Shown here: piece by piece, positions 12,406-64,000 of the stretch
Layout of the letters: every line of letters starts with the position of its first letter
Position numbering within the stretch: position 1 is the first letter of the stretch
Assembly: GCF_019008365.1 (NCBI RefSeq)
Contig: NZ_JAHHUL010000003.1
Coordinates: 124,001-188,000, forward strand
DNA length: 64,000 bases
Source of the DNA: Phosphitispora fastidiosa
GTDB taxonomy: Bacteria > Bacillota > Thermincolia > Thermincolales > UBA2595
Direction: 5' to 3'
The notes under the pieces: model-generated
Seen by the model: the letters and a program-made list of their open reading frames with translations, nothing else
Told to the model about the DNA's origin: nothing
The model's database searches: none
Position numbers and translations under genes: made by a program

Positions 12406-12429
12406 TGTCTTAAAAATAGTATTAAACAA

Positions 12430-12507
12430 GCAGATCACGTAACTGGCGGATAGTGGGGGCACCCACAGGGAGCGTGATTGGAGAAAGATTATCGACCGCC
12501 TGGGTAG
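12430..12507 (+). promoter_or_regulatory. ZTP (pfl) riboswitch
   Basis: The helix ATCACG/CGTGAT (12434-12439 with 12473-12478) encloses the family signatures ACTGGCGGA, GTGGG and CACAGGGAGC. A linker then leads to the second conserved element ACCGCCTGGGTA (12495-12506). ZTP riboswitches sense ZMP/ZTP, the AICAR nucleotide that builds up when 10-formyl-THF runs short, and switch on folate and purine genes. The gene downstream encodes AICAR transformylase, the enzyme that consumes ZMP, which strongly supports the call. Confidence 0.9.
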
Positions 12508-12530
12508 ACTAGAGCCCAGGCGGTATTTTA
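12496..12530 (+). terminator. riboswitch expression platform terminator
   Basis: CCGCCTGGG and CCCAGGCGG form a 9-bp stem with a 10-nt loop, followed by TATTTTATT. The left arm is the conserved 3' element of the ZTP aptamer, so ligand binding should prevent the stem and allow transcription to continue. Confidence 0.88.
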
Positions 12531-53135: not shown

Positions 53136-54543
53136 AGGAGAAAGGAGGTAAAGTATGGCTCTCGCAAAGAAAGTAACGGTTTTTGATGTTTTCGACCGGG
53201 CTAAAACCGGGAAGAAAGTTAATGAGAACGACTGGGATTATAAGATTATTCCCCAAACAGCCAGCAGATTAAAAGAGAAGTATGGCATAAAAATGGACAA
53301 AAAAGTCATCGTGCCTACTGATAAGGCAATGATTGACAACCTGTTCAAGGCTGGTTTGGAAATGCTGGTTGAATGCGGTATTTACTGTATGGATACCGGG
53401 CGTGTCATAAAATACACCGAAGAAGAAATACTGACATCTGTAAATGCAGCGCCGAGCCGTGTTGTGCTCGGGGAAGGCAAGGATGCAGTGATAATGGAAA
53501 CCCGGAGCTACCAGGATTCCCGTCCTCCTATAATTCAGGGGGGACCAACCGGGGCGCCGGTTTCAGAGGACATGTTTATGGCACTGCACCAGTCATATGC
53601 TACAGAACCACTGGTAAACACAATAGTTGACGGAGTGCTGCAAACTATCAACGGACATGACCCCACACCGGGAAGTCCGTGGGAGATAGCAGCCGTTAAG
53701 TCTGAAGCCATGTTAATCCGGGCCGCCCAGGCAAGAGCAGGCCGCCCCGGGATGGCATTGTAGGGGAACGAGACATCATTATCCGCTGCCGGTGTAATCG
53801 CTGCTGATTTCCCGGGCGGAATGCGGGCTTCTGACAGCCATGAGGTATCCCAGCTAAATGAGCTGAAGATTGACGTAGGTGCGTTAGCCTTTACTGCTCA
53901 TTATGTACTGGCCGGAGATGTTATCATGTGTGAACAGATGCCTATTTACGGGGGTTATGCCGGAGGGCTGGAAGAGACCACGATAGTAGATGTGGCCACA
54001 ACTCTGAATGCCTTTATCATGACCCAGGCAACCTGGCACCTGGATGGTCCGATTCATGTGCGCTGGGGCATTACTACAGCCAGAGAGGCTCTGGCGGTGG
54101 CAGGCCACTGTGCCATGGCGATTGAGGCCAATACCAATTTGATGCTGGGTAACCAGTATTACACCATCGCCGGACCGTGTACGGTAATGTGCCTGCTGGA
54201 GACAGCAGCCCAAGCCATTACAGATACGGCCAGCGGGCGGGAAATACTGTCAGGCGTAGCCTCTGCCAAGGGGGTTGCTACCAACTATACCACCGGTATG
54301 GAAGCCCGGATGATGGCCGAGGCCGCCAGGGCTGTGGCTGGTATGGAGACTGATAAGATTAATGCGATCCTTGACAAATTAGTTGCCATGTATGAAAAAG
54401 ACTATAAAACGGCGCCTAAAGGCAAGCCGTTCCAGGAGTGTTACGATGTTGTCCGCCTTGTCCCGACCCAGGAATACCTGGATATCTATGATGAGGCAGT
54501 TAAAATCCTTACCGAATTAGGGCTCGATTACTGGAAGAAGTAA
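52498..54543 (+). repeat. 2,046-bp duplicated mtmCB segment, copy 1
   Basis: Appears identical to 57960-60005 (offset 5,462 bp). All protein frames, including non-coding frames, give the same translations. The match starts at codon 4 of mtmC and stops exactly at the mtmB stop codon. Confidence 0.93.
53155..54543 (+). CDS. mtmB: monomethylamine methyltransferase with in-frame UAG (pyrrolysine), copy 1
   Basis: It transfers the methyl group of monomethylamine to the corrinoid of MtmC. The gene is read through TAG 53761-53763 (codon 203), giving 462 residues with pyrrolysine between GRPGMAL and GNETSLSAAG. Length, flanking residues and UAG position agree with methanogen MtmB, where Pyl202 binds the amine. 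Conserved parts on both sides (IIQGGPTGAPVSEDM; HLDGPIHVRWGITTAREAL) show one protein, not two. AAAGGAGG precedes ATG. A strong terminator follows. An ordinary annotation would split it into 202- and 240-residue pieces. Confidence 0.96.
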
Positions 54544-57949: not shown

Positions 57950-58597
57950 ATGAGCAAACAGGATATTCTGAACAAACTGAAGGATTCAATTGAGAAGCTG
58001 GACACAGGTATGGCCGAAGCGGCAGCCAAGGAGGCAAAAGCAGCAGGGATAGAGGCCATGGATGCCATTCAAAACGGTCTCTCCCAGGGTATGAATACCA
58101 TCAGTGATCTTTTTGATGAAGGTGAACTGTATGTACCACAAATACTTGTGGCTGCAGAGGCCTTTGAAAAAGGAGTAGCTATTTTAACTGCAGATATGCT
58201 GGAAGCAGAGCGTAACAAGACCAAGGCCGGAAAGGTAATCTGCCACACTGTTGAGGGTGATATTCACGATATCGGCAAGAACATCGTGAAGATAATGCTA
58301 ATTGCCAGTGGTTTTGAGGTAATTGATTTAGGCCGGGATGTACCGGTGGATGAGGTTGTCCGCAAGGCAATCGAAGAGGGAGTGGACATTATCACAGGTT
58401 CAGCCCTGATGACCACAACTATGCCTTCACAGCGAGATATCATCAAGGTCCTTGAGGAAGAAGGCTACCGTGACAAGATCAAGTGCATGTTCGGCGGGGC
58501 TCCGGTATCCCAGGAGTGGGTAGACCAGATTGGTGCCGACGCTTATGGGGACAATGCAGCTGAAGCTATTAGCAAAGCTAAGGAACTGATGGCATAA
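57950..58597 (+). CDS. mtmC: monomethylamine corrinoid protein, copy 2
   Basis: The 215 residues are identical to copy 1 except residues 3-4 (KQ), with the same D104-x-H106-x-x-G109 corrinoid motif. GAGGAGGTGA precedes ATG. The leader differs from that of copy 1 except for the sigma-54 core and the ribosome site. mtmB2 follows 19 bp downstream. Confidence 0.94.
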   Translation: MSKQDILNKLKDSIEKLDTGMAEAAAKEAKAAGIEAMDAIQNGLSQGMNTISDLFDEGELYVPQILVAAEAFEKGVAILTADMLEAERNKTKAGKVICHTVEGDIHDIGKNIVKIMLIASGFEVIDLGRDVPVDEVVRKAIEEGVDIITGSALMTTTMPSQRDIIKVLEEEGYRDKIKCMFGGAPVSQEWVDQIGADAYGDNAAEAISKAKELMA

Positions 58598-60005
58598 AGG
58601 AGAAAGGAGGTAAAGTATGGCTCTCGCAAAGAAAGTAACGGTTTTTGATGTTTTCGACCGGGCTAAAACCGGGAAGAAAGTTAATGAGAACGACTGGGAT
58701 TATAAGATTATTCCCCAAACAGCCAGCAGATTAAAAGAGAAGTATGGCATAAAAATGGACAAAAAAGTCATCGTGCCTACTGATAAGGCAATGATTGACA
58801 ACCTGTTCAAGGCTGGTTTGGAAATGCTGGTTGAATGCGGTATTTACTGTATGGATACCGGGCGTGTCATAAAATACACCGAAGAAGAAATACTGACATC
58901 TGTAAATGCAGCGCCGAGCCGTGTTGTGCTCGGGGAAGGCAAGGATGCAGTGATAATGGAAACCCGGAGCTACCAGGATTCCCGTCCTCCTATAATTCAG
59001 GGGGGACCAACCGGGGCGCCGGTTTCAGAGGACATGTTTATGGCACTGCACCAGTCATATGCTACAGAACCACTGGTAAACACAATAGTTGACGGAGTGC
59101 TGCAAACTATCAACGGACATGACCCCACACCGGGAAGTCCGTGGGAGATAGCAGCCGTTAAGTCTGAAGCCATGTTAATCCGGGCCGCCCAGGCAAGAGC
59201 AGGCCGCCCCGGGATGGCATTGTAGGGGAACGAGACATCATTATCCGCTGCCGGTGTAATCGCTGCTGATTTCCCGGGCGGAATGCGGGCTTCTGACAGC
59301 CATGAGGTATCCCAGCTAAATGAGCTGAAGATTGACGTAGGTGCGTTAGCCTTTACTGCTCATTATGTACTGGCCGGAGATGTTATCATGTGTGAACAGA
59401 TGCCTATTTACGGGGGTTATGCCGGAGGGCTGGAAGAGACCACGATAGTAGATGTGGCCACAACTCTGAATGCCTTTATCATGACCCAGGCAACCTGGCA
59501 CCTGGATGGTCCGATTCATGTGCGCTGGGGCATTACTACAGCCAGAGAGGCTCTGGCGGTGGCAGGCCACTGTGCCATGGCGATTGAGGCCAATACCAAT
59601 TTGATGCTGGGTAACCAGTATTACACCATCGCCGGACCGTGTACGGTAATGTGCCTGCTGGAGACAGCAGCCCAAGCCATTACAGATACGGCCAGCGGGC
59701 GGGAAATACTGTCAGGCGTAGCCTCTGCCAAGGGGGTTGCTACCAACTATACCACCGGTATGGAAGCCCGGATGATGGCCGAGGCCGCCAGGGCTGTGGC
59801 TGGTATGGAGACTGATAAGATTAATGCGATCCTTGACAAATTAGTTGCCATGTATGAAAAAGACTATAAAACGGCGCCTAAAGGCAAGCCGTTCCAGGAG
59901 TGTTACGATGTTGTCCGCCTTGTCCCGACCCAGGAATACCTGGATATCTATGATGAGGCAGTTAAAATCCTTACCGAATTAGGGCTCGATTACTGGAAGA
60001 AGTAA
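57960..60005 (+). repeat. 2,046-bp duplicated mtmCB segment, copy 2
   Basis: Second copy of the segment at 52498-54543, same strand. Sequence on both sides is unrelated or clearly diverged. Confidence 0.93.
58617..60005 (+). CDS. mtmB: monomethylamine methyltransferase with in-frame UAG (pyrrolysine), copy 2
   Basis: The protein sequence is identical to copy 1, 462 residues with pyrrolysine at codon 203 (TAG 59223-59225). Unlike copy 1, no terminator follows; instead a structured RNA region and pylT lie 17 and 116 bp downstream. This copy is thus linked to the genes that make and load the amino acid it needs, and the two may be transcribed together from the sigma-54 promoter at 57870. Confidence 0.96.
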
Positions 60006-60022
60006 GGTAACATCTGACTGAT

Positions 60023-60103
60023 GGGGCAGGCAGCCTGCGGCGCAGGGATACTGTGATGTGTCCGTTCGGCTTTTGCCGGCGGAGAGGCATCGCTGCCTGC
60101 CCC
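60023..60103 (+). ncRNA. cloverleaf-like structured RNA between mtmB2 and pylT
   Basis: GGGGCAGGCAGC (60023-60034) pairs perfectly with GCTGCCTGCCCC (60092-60103), a 12-bp closing stem. Inside are three hairpins: CTGC-GGC-GCAG (60035-60045), GGATAC-TGTGAT-GTGTCC (60046-60063) and CGGC-TTTT-GCCG (60067-60078). No T-run follows, so it is not a simple terminator. It may be a processing signal that frees tRNA-Pyl, an attenuator or an inserted repeat. No known RNA family was recognised. Confidence 0.55.
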
Positions 60104-60121
60104 CCGGTCGTTTAATTACAT

Positions 60122-60193
60122 GGAGGGTTGATCGGCAAGATCATGGAGACTCTAAATCTCCACAGCCGGGTTGGACTCCCGGACTCTCCTCCA
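60122..60193 (+). tRNA. pylT: tRNA-Pyl (CUA anticodon)
   Basis: The 72-nt tRNA shows the hallmarks of tRNA-Pyl: a 7-bp acceptor stem (GGAGGGT/ACTCTCC), a single base before the D stem, a 5-nt D loop (GATC-GGCAA-GATC) and a 6-bp anticodon stem (TGGAGA/TCTCCA). The loop CTCTAAA holds CTA at 60152-60154. The variable loop has three bases, and the T loop TTGGACT lacks TTC. CCA is encoded. The discriminator base reads T, where known tRNA-Pyl have G. It decodes UAG in mtmB. Confidence 0.95.
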
Positions 60194-60236: not shown

Positions 60237-60566
60237 ATGAGTTTACCCGTACAGAAAACAGAGGCTTCAAGCCCCAAAAAGGCAAAGAAACGTTATTTCC
60301 GGAAACATGAGGATTTAGCCGGTGTTATAGAAAAAATAAAGCTCTGGCCGTCCCGGTCAGGAGTGCTTCACGGTGTCAGGAAAATTACTGTCAAGGGCAG
60401 ACATATTGAGATAGTTACCCATTGCGGCAATCAGTTAGATATTAAAAATTCAAAGACAAGCCGGGTTTCCCGCTGGTTGAGAAACAAATGGTATGCCAAA
60501 GCCTGTCCAAAGTGTAAAATACCTACATGGAAGTTGGAGAAATTTTCTTCAACCTCTTTTCAGTAA
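60237..60566 (+). CDS. pylSn: pyrrolysyl-tRNA synthetase N-terminal domain protein
   Basis: Start ATG 60237 is chosen because GAGGAGG lies 7 nt upstream; ATG 60231 is too close. The 109 residues match the separate PylSn of bacteria, a small basic tRNA-Pyl-binding protein (KRYFRKHEDLAGVIEKIKLW; RHIEIVTHCGNQLDIKNSK; a final CPKC zinc-type pair). It follows pylT by 43 bp. In Desulfitobacterium, pylSn lies at the far end of the cluster; here it directly precedes pylSc, in the same frame, separated by TAA and five codons. Confidence 0.93.
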   Translation: MSLPVQKTEASSPKKAKKRYFRKHEDLAGVIEKIKLWPSRSGVLHGVRKITVKGRHIEIVTHCGNQLDIKNSKTSRVSRWLRNKWYAKACPKCKIPTWKLEKFSSTSFQ

Positions 60567-60581
60567 AGGGGGCATTCTGTT

Positions 60582-61412
60582 TTGAAACTTGCCTTTACTG
60601 TTACACAGAAACAGAGGCTTATCGAGCTTGATGCGGCGGAGGGAATTGATGGGCTTGTTTTTATTAATGCGCAGGAACGAGACCATTCATTTAAAAAGAT
60701 AAATCAGGAATTGGTCCTTAAGAATAAAGAGCGTTTGGAAAGACTGCGGTCAGAAAGACTGCGTCCATCTATCAGAGAGCTTGAACAGATTTTGGTTAAC
60801 TGCCTGAACAGGGCTGGTTTTGTTGAAGTAAATACACCTACCACGATAGCGAAGGAAATGTTGGTGAAAATGGGGATTACTGCGGAACATCCTCTATGGA
60901 ACCAGGTATACTGGACTGATAAAAACAGCTGTCTGCGTCCGATGTTAGCCCCTAACCTGTATTACCTGTTAGGACGGCTGGCAAAAATCTGGCCAAGGCC
61001 TATTCGAATCTTTGAAATAGGACAGTGTTTTCGCAAGGAGTCAAAAGGGGCTAAACACCTTTCGGAATTCACCATGCTCAATCTGGTTGAAATGGGCACT
61101 GCCGGCGATACCGGGGAACGATTGGCCGAATTGGCAGACCTGGTTATGAATGCGGCAGGTTTACCCTACAGCCTGGATGCGGAAGACTCGGAAGTTTATG
61201 GTGACACTACTGATGTTATGGCCGACAATGTTGAAATTGCCTCCGGAGCCACTGGGCCTCATCCTTTAGATGGCAGCTGGAATATTACTGAACCATGGGT
61301 TGGCCTGGGTTTTGGGCTGGAGCGCATGGTTATGGTGAAAGAAGGGTTTCAGAATATCCGCCGGGTGGGACGCGGCCTGATGTACCTGGATGGTGCCAGA
61401 TTGAATATTTAA
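60582..61412 (+). CDS. pylSc: pyrrolysyl-tRNA synthetase catalytic domain
   Basis: Class II synthetase that charges tRNA-Pyl with pyrrolysine. Start is TTG 60582 after AAAGGGGG. The 276 residues show class II motif 2 (FEIGQCFRKES) and motif 3 (GLGFGLERMVMVKEG). The Pyl pocket region LRPMLAPNLYYLLGRL is conserved. The N-terminal tRNA-binding part is supplied by PylSn. Its frame equals that of pylSn. Confidence 0.95.
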   Translation: MKLAFTVTQKQRLIELDAAEGIDGLVFINAQERDHSFKKINQELVLKNKERLERLRSERLRPSIRELEQILVNCLNRAGFVEVNTPTTIAKEMLVKMGITAEHPLWNQVYWTDKNSCLRPMLAPNLYYLLGRLAKIWPRPIRIFEIGQCFRKESKGAKHLSEFTMLNLVEMGTAGDTGERLAELADLVMNAAGLPYSLDAEDSEVYGDTTDVMADNVEIASGATGPHPLDGSWNITEPWVGLGFGLERMVMVKEGFQNIRRVGRGLMYLDGARLNI

Positions 61413-61436
61413 TTGAGGCTGAAGGAGGATGGAATA

Positions 61437-62624
61437 ATGACGCTGTTTTCTATGAATAAGCGTTATCTGGACGGAATCTTATATAAGGCGGAAAGCGGAA
61501 TTTCCCTTTCACACCGGGAAATTGTCAATCTGCTTACCTTGGAAGATACAGAGTCTATCCAAAAAGTAATGAAAAGCGCCCGGAAACTGCGTGAACAGCA
61601 TTTTGGCAACAAATTGTTTCTTTATGGGTTTATATATTTTTCCACCTACTGCAAGAACCACTGTACCTTCTGTTTTTACAGGAAGACAAATAGTTTAAGC
61701 CCCCGGTATCGCAAGAATCTCTCAGAGGTTGTGGATATTGCTGCCAGACTGGCTGATTCCGGAGTACACCTGATCGACCTGACTATGGGGGAAGACCCTG
61801 ACATATACCGGACAGGCGGTTTTGATGTGCTTTTGGAAATGATTGACCGGGTAAAGGTTACCACCGGTTTGCCGGTGATGATTTCACCTGGGGTGATACC
61901 TGACGATATCCTTGAAAAAATGAGTGATTCCGGGGTTACCTGGTATGCTCTTTATCAGGAAACCCATAATCAGCTTCTCTATAGGAAACTGAGAGTTGGC
62001 CAGGGCTTTGCGGCACGCAAAAACAAGAGGCTTAAGGCCCGTGAACTGGGAATGCTGGTGGAAGACGGAATGCTGCTGGGAGTTGGCGAAACGACCGGTG
62101 ACAGGGCTGATTCTATTTTATGCATGAAGCATGAGGGGGTTCATCAGGCCAGGGTGATGAGTCTGGTGCCCCAGCGTCAGACCCCAATGGCTGGAAGGGT
62201 TGCTATTCCCAGGATTAATGAGTATTTATGTATAGCCGTAATGAGACTTTTAATGCCTGACAGGCTGATTCCGGCTTCATTGGATGTGGATGGCATTAAG
62301 GGCCTGGAGATGCGGCTGGAGGCAGGGGCCAATGTGGTTACCTCCATTATACCGTCCAGCAGCAGTCTTGCCGGTGTTTCCCAGAGCACTCTGGACATTG
62401 AACAGGGTCTCCGCGCAGTACCGGAGGTTAAAAAAATATTGGCCGGCAAGGGATTGGAAGCAGCCGGTTTAGGTGAATACAGCGCCTGGATAGCCTCCCA
62501 AAAAGGCAAAATAAGCTCGGGGGTGGGTGAGTATGACGAGAATCCTAATAGTAGGCGGACAGCTTCAGGGGCTGGAGGCAGTATATCTTGCCCGGCAGGC
62601 TGGACTGGAAGCAGCGCTAATTGA
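61437..62624 (+). CDS. pylB: PylB, methylornithine synthase (radical SAM)
   Basis: It converts lysine to 3-methylornithine, the first step of pyrrolysine synthesis. Start is ATG 61437 after AAGGAGG. The radical SAM cluster motif CKNHCTFC has Cys72, Cys76 and Cys79. The frame gives 395 residues, but PylB is usually about 350. The last 31 or so residues (from about 364) are simply the first 98 bp of pylC read in another frame. A TGA at 62528-62530 in a neighbouring frame suggests that the gene once ended there, so a small indel or sequence error near 62515-62525 is possible. Confidence 0.93.
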   Translation: MTLFSMNKRYLDGILYKAESGISLSHREIVNLLTLEDTESIQKVMKSARKLREQHFGNKLFLYGFIYFSTYCKNHCTFCFYRKTNSLSPRYRKNLSEVVDIAARLADSGVHLIDLTMGEDPDIYRTGGFDVLLEMIDRVKVTTGLPVMISPGVIPDDILEKMSDSGVTWYALYQETHNQLLYRKLRVGQGFAARKNKRLKARELGMLVEDGMLLGVGETTGDRADSILCMKHEGVHQARVMSLVPQRQTPMAGRVAIPRINEYLCIAVMRLLMPDRLIPASLDVDGIKGLEMRLEAGANVVTSIIPSSSSLAGVSQSTLDIEQGLRAVPEVKKILAGKGLEAAGLGEYSAWIASQKGKISSGVGEYDENPNSRRTASGAGGSISCPAGWTGSSAN

Positions 62625-63726
62625 TAAAGACCCGTTCGTACCGGCAGCGGCTTTGGCAGACGAGTTTTATAATATTAATTTATTGACTGATGGCAAGAAG
62701 GCAGAGCGCCTGTTAGGTGAGTTTGATCTAATCCTGCCGGCCACTGAAAATTACGATGTCTTAACCTGGCTTTATCAAGCAGCAAATCGTTATCAGGTGC
62801 CATTAGCGTTTGATATGCAGGCATATAGTATTAGTTCCTCAAAGCTGAAAAGCAATCGTTTTTTTCATCTTAAAGGGATTCCTATCCCGGAACGGTGGCC
62901 GGAATGCGGTTTTCCGGTAATCGTGAAACCTTCCGGCCTGAGCGGCAGCAAGGGTGTCGAGAAAGCAGACAACCATGCAGAGTTAAATTCGCTGCTAAAC
63001 AGGACCGGCCGGGGAATGGTGATCCAGGAATACCTGGAAGGGCCTTCTTATTCCCTGGAAGTCATTGCTGACCATGGTAAGTGTCTGGGACTACAGGTAA
63101 CAGAATTGAACTTTGATGCTGACTATGACTGTAAAAGGGTCATAGCGGGACCCAATACAGGCAGGGAAATCGAGGCTGCTTTTCTTGAACTGGGGGATTG
63201 GATTGCTTCAGAGATAAAGCTGTCAGGAATTATGGATATTGAAGTAATTGATAACAGTGGACAGTTGAAGGTTCTGGAAATAGATGCCAGGCTTCCCAGC
63301 CAGACCCCTGCCGCAGTATACCATTCAACAGGAATTAATATGGTAAAACTTTTGGCGGATTTCTGGATTAATGGAAAACTGCCTGTCCGGCAGGAAATTT
63401 TCGGGGACAGCCGTGCTGTGGTTTATGAACACTTCAGGCTTCACCGGAGGACTCTGGAAACAGCCGGGGAGCATGTTATTGTGGGGGCTCAAAACCTAAA
63501 GATATATAAAGACAGGTTTTCAGCCGATACCCTGATAACAAATTTTGATAGTTCTGCTGAAGAATGGGTAGCTACAGCCATATTTACCGGTGATACTGAA
63601 GAGCAGGCGCGGCAAATCCGCGATATGGGAGTAAGAGGCATTATTGAGTCTTTCAATGTAAGGCGATATGTTGATTCAGATCCTTTTAGTGACAGGAGTA
63701 AAGAATATGACCAGATTATACTATGA
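62533..63726 (+). CDS. pylC: PylC, 3-methylornithine-lysine ligase
   Basis: ATP-grasp ligase joining 3-methylornithine to the epsilon amine of a second lysine. ATG 62533 is chosen (397 residues); GTG 62527 would add two codons. The N-terminus is a Rossmann-type pre-ATP-grasp domain (ILIVGGQLQGLEAVYLARQ). ATP-grasp motifs follow: VIVKPSGLSGSKGV, VIQEYLEGPSYSLEVI and the metal site LEIDARLPSQTP. It overlaps pylB by 92 bp at the start and pylD by 20 bp at the end. Confidence 0.94.
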   Translation: MTRILIVGGQLQGLEAVYLARQAGLEAALIDKDPFVPAAALADEFYNINLLTDGKKAERLLGEFDLILPATENYDVLTWLYQAANRYQVPLAFDMQAYSISSSKLKSNRFFHLKGIPIPERWPECGFPVIVKPSGLSGSKGVEKADNHAELNSLLNRTGRGMVIQEYLEGPSYSLEVIADHGKCLGLQVTELNFDADYDCKRVIAGPNTGREIEAAFLELGDWIASEIKLSGIMDIEVIDNSGQLKVLEIDARLPSQTPAAVYHSTGINMVKLLADFWINGKLPVRQEIFGDSRAVVYEHFRLHRRTLETAGEHVIVGAQNLKIYKDRFSADTLITNFDSSAEEWVATAIFTGDTEEQARQIRDMGVRGIIESFNVRRYVDSDPFSDRSKEYDQIIL

Positions 63727-64000
63727 AATTATCAGGGATATTCCCAATTCTCTGGCAATATTGGATAAAACGCTGCTGTTAAGCACCGGACTGGATTTAT
63801 TGGGGCTTGGGGCGGTATGTGCCGGAATGGACCGTGATGGGGCAGCCAAGGAAATCGGTAATTATTCTGCTGCTGTCGTCCCGGTATCTTCTGGACAGGG
63901 CATTATTCCCGGCTTTGCAGAAGGGGTCAATGCTGTTCTTGGACATATAGGTTTAAATGCAGCTATTACCGCTCAAACAGACATTGGTGGAATCGGAGAA
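63707..64000 (+). CDS. pylD: PylD, 3' end outside the window
   Basis: It oxidises 3-methylornithyl-lysine, which then closes to pyrrolysine. ATG 63707 lies inside the end of pylC, with AGGAG 7 to 11 nt upstream. The 98 codons visible begin MTRLYYEIIRDIPNSLAILD and include VVPVSSGQGIIPGFAEGVNA and the start of a Gly-rich segment (TDIGGIGE). Position after pylC and these segments support the call; the NAD-binding part is beyond the window. Confidence 0.9.
   Translation, partial: MTRLYYEIIRDIPNSLAILDKTLLLSTGLDLLGLGAVCAGMDRDGAAKEIGNYSAAVVPVSSGQGIIPGFAEGVNAVLGHIGLNAAITAQTDIGGIGE

Follow-up and report, generated by a model that had tools for sequence, protein, structure and literature searches.

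Split pyrrolysyl-tRNA synthetase genes of Phosphitispora fastidiosa very probably share a reading frame by chance, in a gene order also found in archaea

Results

The pyl locus

The 64,000-nucleotide stretch of Phosphitispora fastidiosa DNA analyzed here, which we call the window, ends within an operon with the order mtmC-mtmB-pylT-pylSn-pylSc-pylB-pylC-pylD, in a genome that belongs to a relative of Thermincola. The identities and order of the genes are direct observations, apart from the naming of mtmB, and all features of the operon lie on the plus strand. The first gene (57950..58597) encodes an mtmC-like methylamine corrinoid protein (TIGR02370, 252 bits). Two abutting frames follow (58617..60005), which we infer to be a single mtmB-like monomethylamine methyltransferase gene with an in-frame TAG, a pyrrolysine codon, at 59223-59225; when TAG was translated as K, the product had no NCBIfam match. 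The Rfam model PYLIS_1 matches within this gene at 59223-59322. A second PYLIS_1 match with an equal score is found upstream, at 53761-53860, in another mtmB-like gene, and elsewhere the window contains a ZMP/ZTP riboswitch (12429-12512; Rfam RF01750, 59 bits). In the interval between mtmB and pylT, folding of 60003-60121 revealed a strong inverted repeat with approximate limits of 60022..60107 (-59.1 kcal/mol and z -4.6 for the folded interval). It lacks a T run and is possibly a terminator or a hairpin for tRNA-Pyl processing.

ARAGORN identified pylT, encoding tRNA-Pyl with the anticodon CTA, at 60122..60193. Downstream are pylSn (60237..60566), with a product of 109 aa that matches TIGR03912 at 123.3 bits (cut-off 51.15), and pylSc (60582..61412), with a TTG start and a product of 276 aa that matches TIGR02367 at 325.5 bits (cut-off 178.15). 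The best PDB matches of the pylSc product are 2zni and 3dsq, which represent PylSc of the split, sN-class PylRS of Desulfitobacterium hafniense; the alignment spans residues 5-276, and the class II core residues are kept. The operon continues with pylB (61437..62624, in an ORF of 61413-62624; TIGR03910, 461 bits), pylC (62533..63726; TIGR03909, 388 bits) and pylD (63707..64000), which is cut by the end of the window and scores 132 bits against its HMM on the visible part. The pylB gene is about 33 codons longer than its conserved domain, for which the HMM match ends at 62519, and shares an overlap of about 90 nt with pylC; in the relatives G004-G006, unlike in the window, pylB stops just ahead of pylC. 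A promoter scan yielded sites no more numerous than in shuffled sequences, and plasmid and phage searches matched nothing.

Pyrrolysyl-tRNA synthetase charges its tRNA with the 22nd amino acid, and in the known families PylSn binds tRNA-Pyl and PylSc carries out the aminoacylation. The locus has the features of a split PylRS, namely PylSn as a separate ORF that ends in TAA, PylSc as an ORF of its own with a separate start signal, and a cognate tRNA-Pyl (CUA) together with pylBCD. The presence of two PylSn genes in the genome sets it apart from the delta-PylSn class, and the TAA between the domains, with about three codons where the linker would be, sets it apart from fused PylS (+N class). We are highly confident that the locus encodes a split pyrrolysyl-tRNA synthetase of the usual kind, belonging to the pylT-Sn-Sc-B-C-D type.

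The pylSn-pylSc junction

Reading of pylSn begins at ATG 60237 and continues for 109 codons to a TAA at 60564-60566; pylSc begins at TTG 60582 and continues for 276 codons to a TAA at 61410-61412. The interval between stop and start (60567-60581) consists of five codons, AGG GGG CAT TCT GTT. The first-pass annotation of this DNA had placed both genes in one frame with a single TAA between them, and had estimated that a change of this stop would give a chain of about 391 residues. Both statements were confirmed on the sequence, in which a sense codon in place of the stop gives 391 residues.

The interval opens with a Shine-Dalgarno-like AGGGGG (60567..60572, plus strand) that touches the pylSn stop and leaves 9 nt to the pylSc start. 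Relatives in the same family have GGAGG or GGGGG at this site, and a GGAGG-type sequence is present immediately 3' of the pylSn stop in 5/5 family members. The pylSc start is likely to be TTG 60582, since ATG occupies the aligned position in four relatives from the family. The junction is probably an ordinary, coupled two-cistron arrangement. PylSn and PylSc would be made as two proteins from one message: ribosomes would terminate at TAA 60564, and the Shine-Dalgarno sequence abutting the stop would let the same or a new ribosome begin PylSc at TTG 60582. The layout of the junction suggests such coupling of termination and reinitiation, in which the hairpins described below may also have a role. 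The two proteins would then share tRNA-Pyl, with PylSn binding it and PylSc predicted to aminoacylate it.

Frames and spacers in other tight clusters

We collected PylSc from the family of the window, its order, sampled members of its phylum, 80 loci of named genomes, two archaeal phyla and one actinobacterial class, and used profile searches to find PylSn and the remaining pyl genes in the surroundings of each PylSc. The tight Sn-Sc(-B) arrangement was present in 16 distinct genomes, across Bacillota, Actinomycetota and two archaeal lineages. The two genes are in frame in five of the 16 (the window, G004, G005, G006 and Hydrothermarchaeum), compared to 5.3 expected by chance; frame +1 is found in G008, G131, two Natroniella and JdFR-19, and frame +2 in G320, G194 and four Actinomycetota. 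Within the family, the spacer between stop and start was directly observed to drift, from 12 nt (G004 and G005) to 13 (G008, the out-of-frame case among the five members) and 15 (the window and G006), and the insertions and deletions fall between the pylSn stop and the pylSc start.

Adjacency and gene order are thus kept across phyla, whereas the shared frame is not. The earlier suggestion that the shared frame is meaningful did not withstand this comparison, in which relatives with the same order differ in frame and spacing. The common frame is, with little doubt, a product of chance that arises from a spacer drifting by insertions and deletions, and the two genes would yield two proteins from one message. 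A frame preference at the level of the family is possible, given that four of the five members are in frame, two of these four being close relatives.

The first-pass annotation had also raised low-level readthrough of the stop, which would yield some fused PylS. The frame is open apart from this one stop, but the stop is a TAA followed by A rather than a Pyl-decoded TAG, the frame is lost in G008 and in other tight lineages, the spacer indels lie between stop and start, and there is almost no linker. Between the same HMM coordinates, the linker is 47-208 residues long in 36 fused rows compared to about three codons here. Readthrough is, in our judgment, very improbable. A fusion controlled by amber (Pyl/UAG) readthrough was rejected on the basis of the TAA at the junction, the in-frame count of 5/16 and the lack of TAG at tight junctions (0/23 rows, with repeats included among the rows).

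A further suggestion, that a fused pylS was recently split by a nonsense mutation, accounts for two parts that share a frame and are divided by a single stop. However, the whole family has a stop, a ribosome-binding site and a start, with Shine-Dalgarno and ATG in every family relative; no remnant of a linker is present, frames vary among the relatives, and PylSc is 71-74% identical to PylSc of the family and distant from fused PylS. We consider the chance of such a fission close to nil. Apparent fusions elsewhere in the sample were likewise dismissed. One locus (L220) was considered as a fused bacterial PylS, and its pylSn is divided between two frames at a stretch of seven consecutive G; a sequencing error is the most likely cause of the broken pylSn of L220 and L230 (G857). 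In Thermoleophilia, the very long open frames that surround PylSc contain no PylSn in frame and reflect only high G+C.

Hairpins at the junction

The family junction contains two hairpins, both on the plus strand. Hairpin 1 (60533..60553, 21 nt) is formed by the last pylSn codons (GTTGGAGAA/TTCTTCAAC), with a stem that is invariant in the five family members and a loop that varies. In hairpin 2 (60561..60600), pylSc codons 3-6 pair with the stop of pylSn and with the Shine-Dalgarno sequence of pylSc, and the pylSc start is in the loop region. One interpretation is that these hairpins form a conserved element of the Thermincolaceae junction, overlapping both coding regions, that tunes PylSc translation, either by coupling it or by setting the PylSc:PylSn ratio. 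Synonymous-codon conservation over pylSn, pylSc and pylB peaks at the junction, where 10 of 16 conserved codons are identical compared to 17-20% overall; this peak was reached in 26 of 5000 permutations with five sequences and in 147 of 5000 with four. The stems are invariant at synonymous sites and the loops vary in sequence and length. In all five members the native energy falls at the low end of the distribution for synonymous-randomised versions (lowest 0-4.4%), and z ranges from -2.2 to -5.3 in the family compared to values close to 0 in four tight lineages outside it. On the other hand, compensatory change was found in 1 of 28 pairs, the sequences are only five and are related, the stretch from the Shine-Dalgarno sequence to the start is no more strongly paired than in randomised versions, and the inner stem has changed in the window itself. 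We regard a role of the two hairpins in tuning PylSc translation as evenly balanced between true and false.

A second, decayed pyl cluster

The same genome carries a second pyl cluster on the minus strand of contig 22 (L033, G000:C22; 3823-10105), with the order mtmC2-mtmB2-pylSn2-(pylSc remnant)-pylB2-pylC2 and a separate tRNA-Pyl, which differs from that of the first cluster at about nine positions. The last codon of pylSn2 is a TAG, and the final 48 codons of a pylSc follow it in frame and with zero gap; the rest of this pylSc is deleted. Of pylD2, only about the first 17 codons remain, and pylB2 and pylC2 are open. In a PylB+PylC tree the second cluster groups with tight clusters, apart from the main copy of the family. 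Contamination is an unlikely origin, as the amtB flank is 91% identical to that of G005, a member of the same genus. Charging of tRNA-Pyl in this genome must rest on pylSc1. The second cluster provides a case in which one pylSc is being lost while a second pylSn is kept in the same genome. In another genome, an orphan pylSn (L232, G041:C10, 6927-7211) has TAG in place of a conserved Trp codon; the search of its genome gave no PylSc match, no tRNA-Pyl was found in its vicinity, and this orphan is probably a decaying remnant.

Discussion

Bacterial clusters are generally of the pylTScBCDSn or pylSnScBCD type, according to the account of cluster organization in Borrel et al. 2014 (PMC3941956). 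The gene order in the window is therefore not new, because both cluster types are described there; the same account, as searched, contains no mention of the frame, the junction RNA or Thermincola. New here are the two family-conserved junction hairpins and the second, decayed pyl cluster. The first-pass annotation had contrasted the window with Desulfitobacterium, in which Sc comes first and Sn last, and we saw such an order in Desulfosporosinus and relatives. The order T-Sn-Sc-B-C-D corresponds to the archaeal pylTSBCD and is present in both bacteria and archaea. The informative trait is this gene order, not the frame.

One possible account is that the tight order represents the state from which fused archaeal PylS arose, by loss of the stop and gain of a linker, with the frame being irrelevant. 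The order is identical to that of fused clusters, and split genes occur in the tight order in two archaeal lineages (L100 and L139). The C-terminal tail QxYGSxL (or QxWGSxL) is found in 34 of 42 relocated PylSn by a strict pattern, and in several more by near variants, and is absent alike from tight split PylSn, including that of the window, and from the N-domains of all 36 fused rows. When the PylB+PylC tree is rooted on fused clusters, its tight clusters adjoin the root and are thus placed nearest the fused ones; the tail-bearing split clusters, nearly all of them relocated, form a clade (starred in the tree), with an actinobacterial locus (L122) as the exception. For PylSc, a topology with tight and fused forms on one side was not rejected by an AU test (p 0.53).

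Against this account, the careful PylSc tree, when left unconstrained, places the tight clade among split forms, with weak deep branches. All tight clusters except L096, which differs in order (B-C-Sn-Sc), form one group in the careful tree, with support of 99/93, and this group also contains two archaeal copies without PylSn. In addition, the root was put on the long fused branch by assumption, and Methanosarcinaceae may have fused the genes from any adjacent order. We hold a pre-fusion origin of the tight order to be plausible, at somewhat less than an even chance. The idea of an ancestor-like state is thus upheld for the gene order and not for the frame, and the proposed phylogenetic check gave a divided answer, with PylB+PylC setting tight clusters near fused ones and the free PylSc tree setting them among split forms. 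The tight order may be old.

Compared to the bacterial pylSnScBCD type (Borrel et al. 2014, PMC3941956), the window has the same order, Sn-Sc-B-C-D. As in the split PylRS of Desulfitobacterium hafniense (sN), the synthetase consists of two separate chains; the genes of the window differ from that type in being adjacent, and its PylSn lacks the QxYGSxL tail that is usual in relocated clusters. The fused PylS (+N) of Methanosarcinaceae resembles the window in gene order, domain order and the absence of this tail, but it is a single chain whose linker measures 47-208 residues in our sample, and a long branch separates the two. The split archaeal genes of Hydrothermarchaeum (L100) and JdFR-19 (L139) also have a tight Sn-Sc arrangement without the tail, and those of Hydrothermarchaeum are in frame, as in the window; these organisms belong to the other domain of life, and their junctions are without the hairpins of the family (z -0.6 for L100). 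The shared frame carries no evolutionary message, and the useful signal is the gene order together with the C-terminal tail of PylSn. Split clusters from both bacteria and archaea have the tight T-Sn-Sc-B-C-D order in common with the fused clusters of archaea, which provides a testable account of the relationship between split and fused PylRS.
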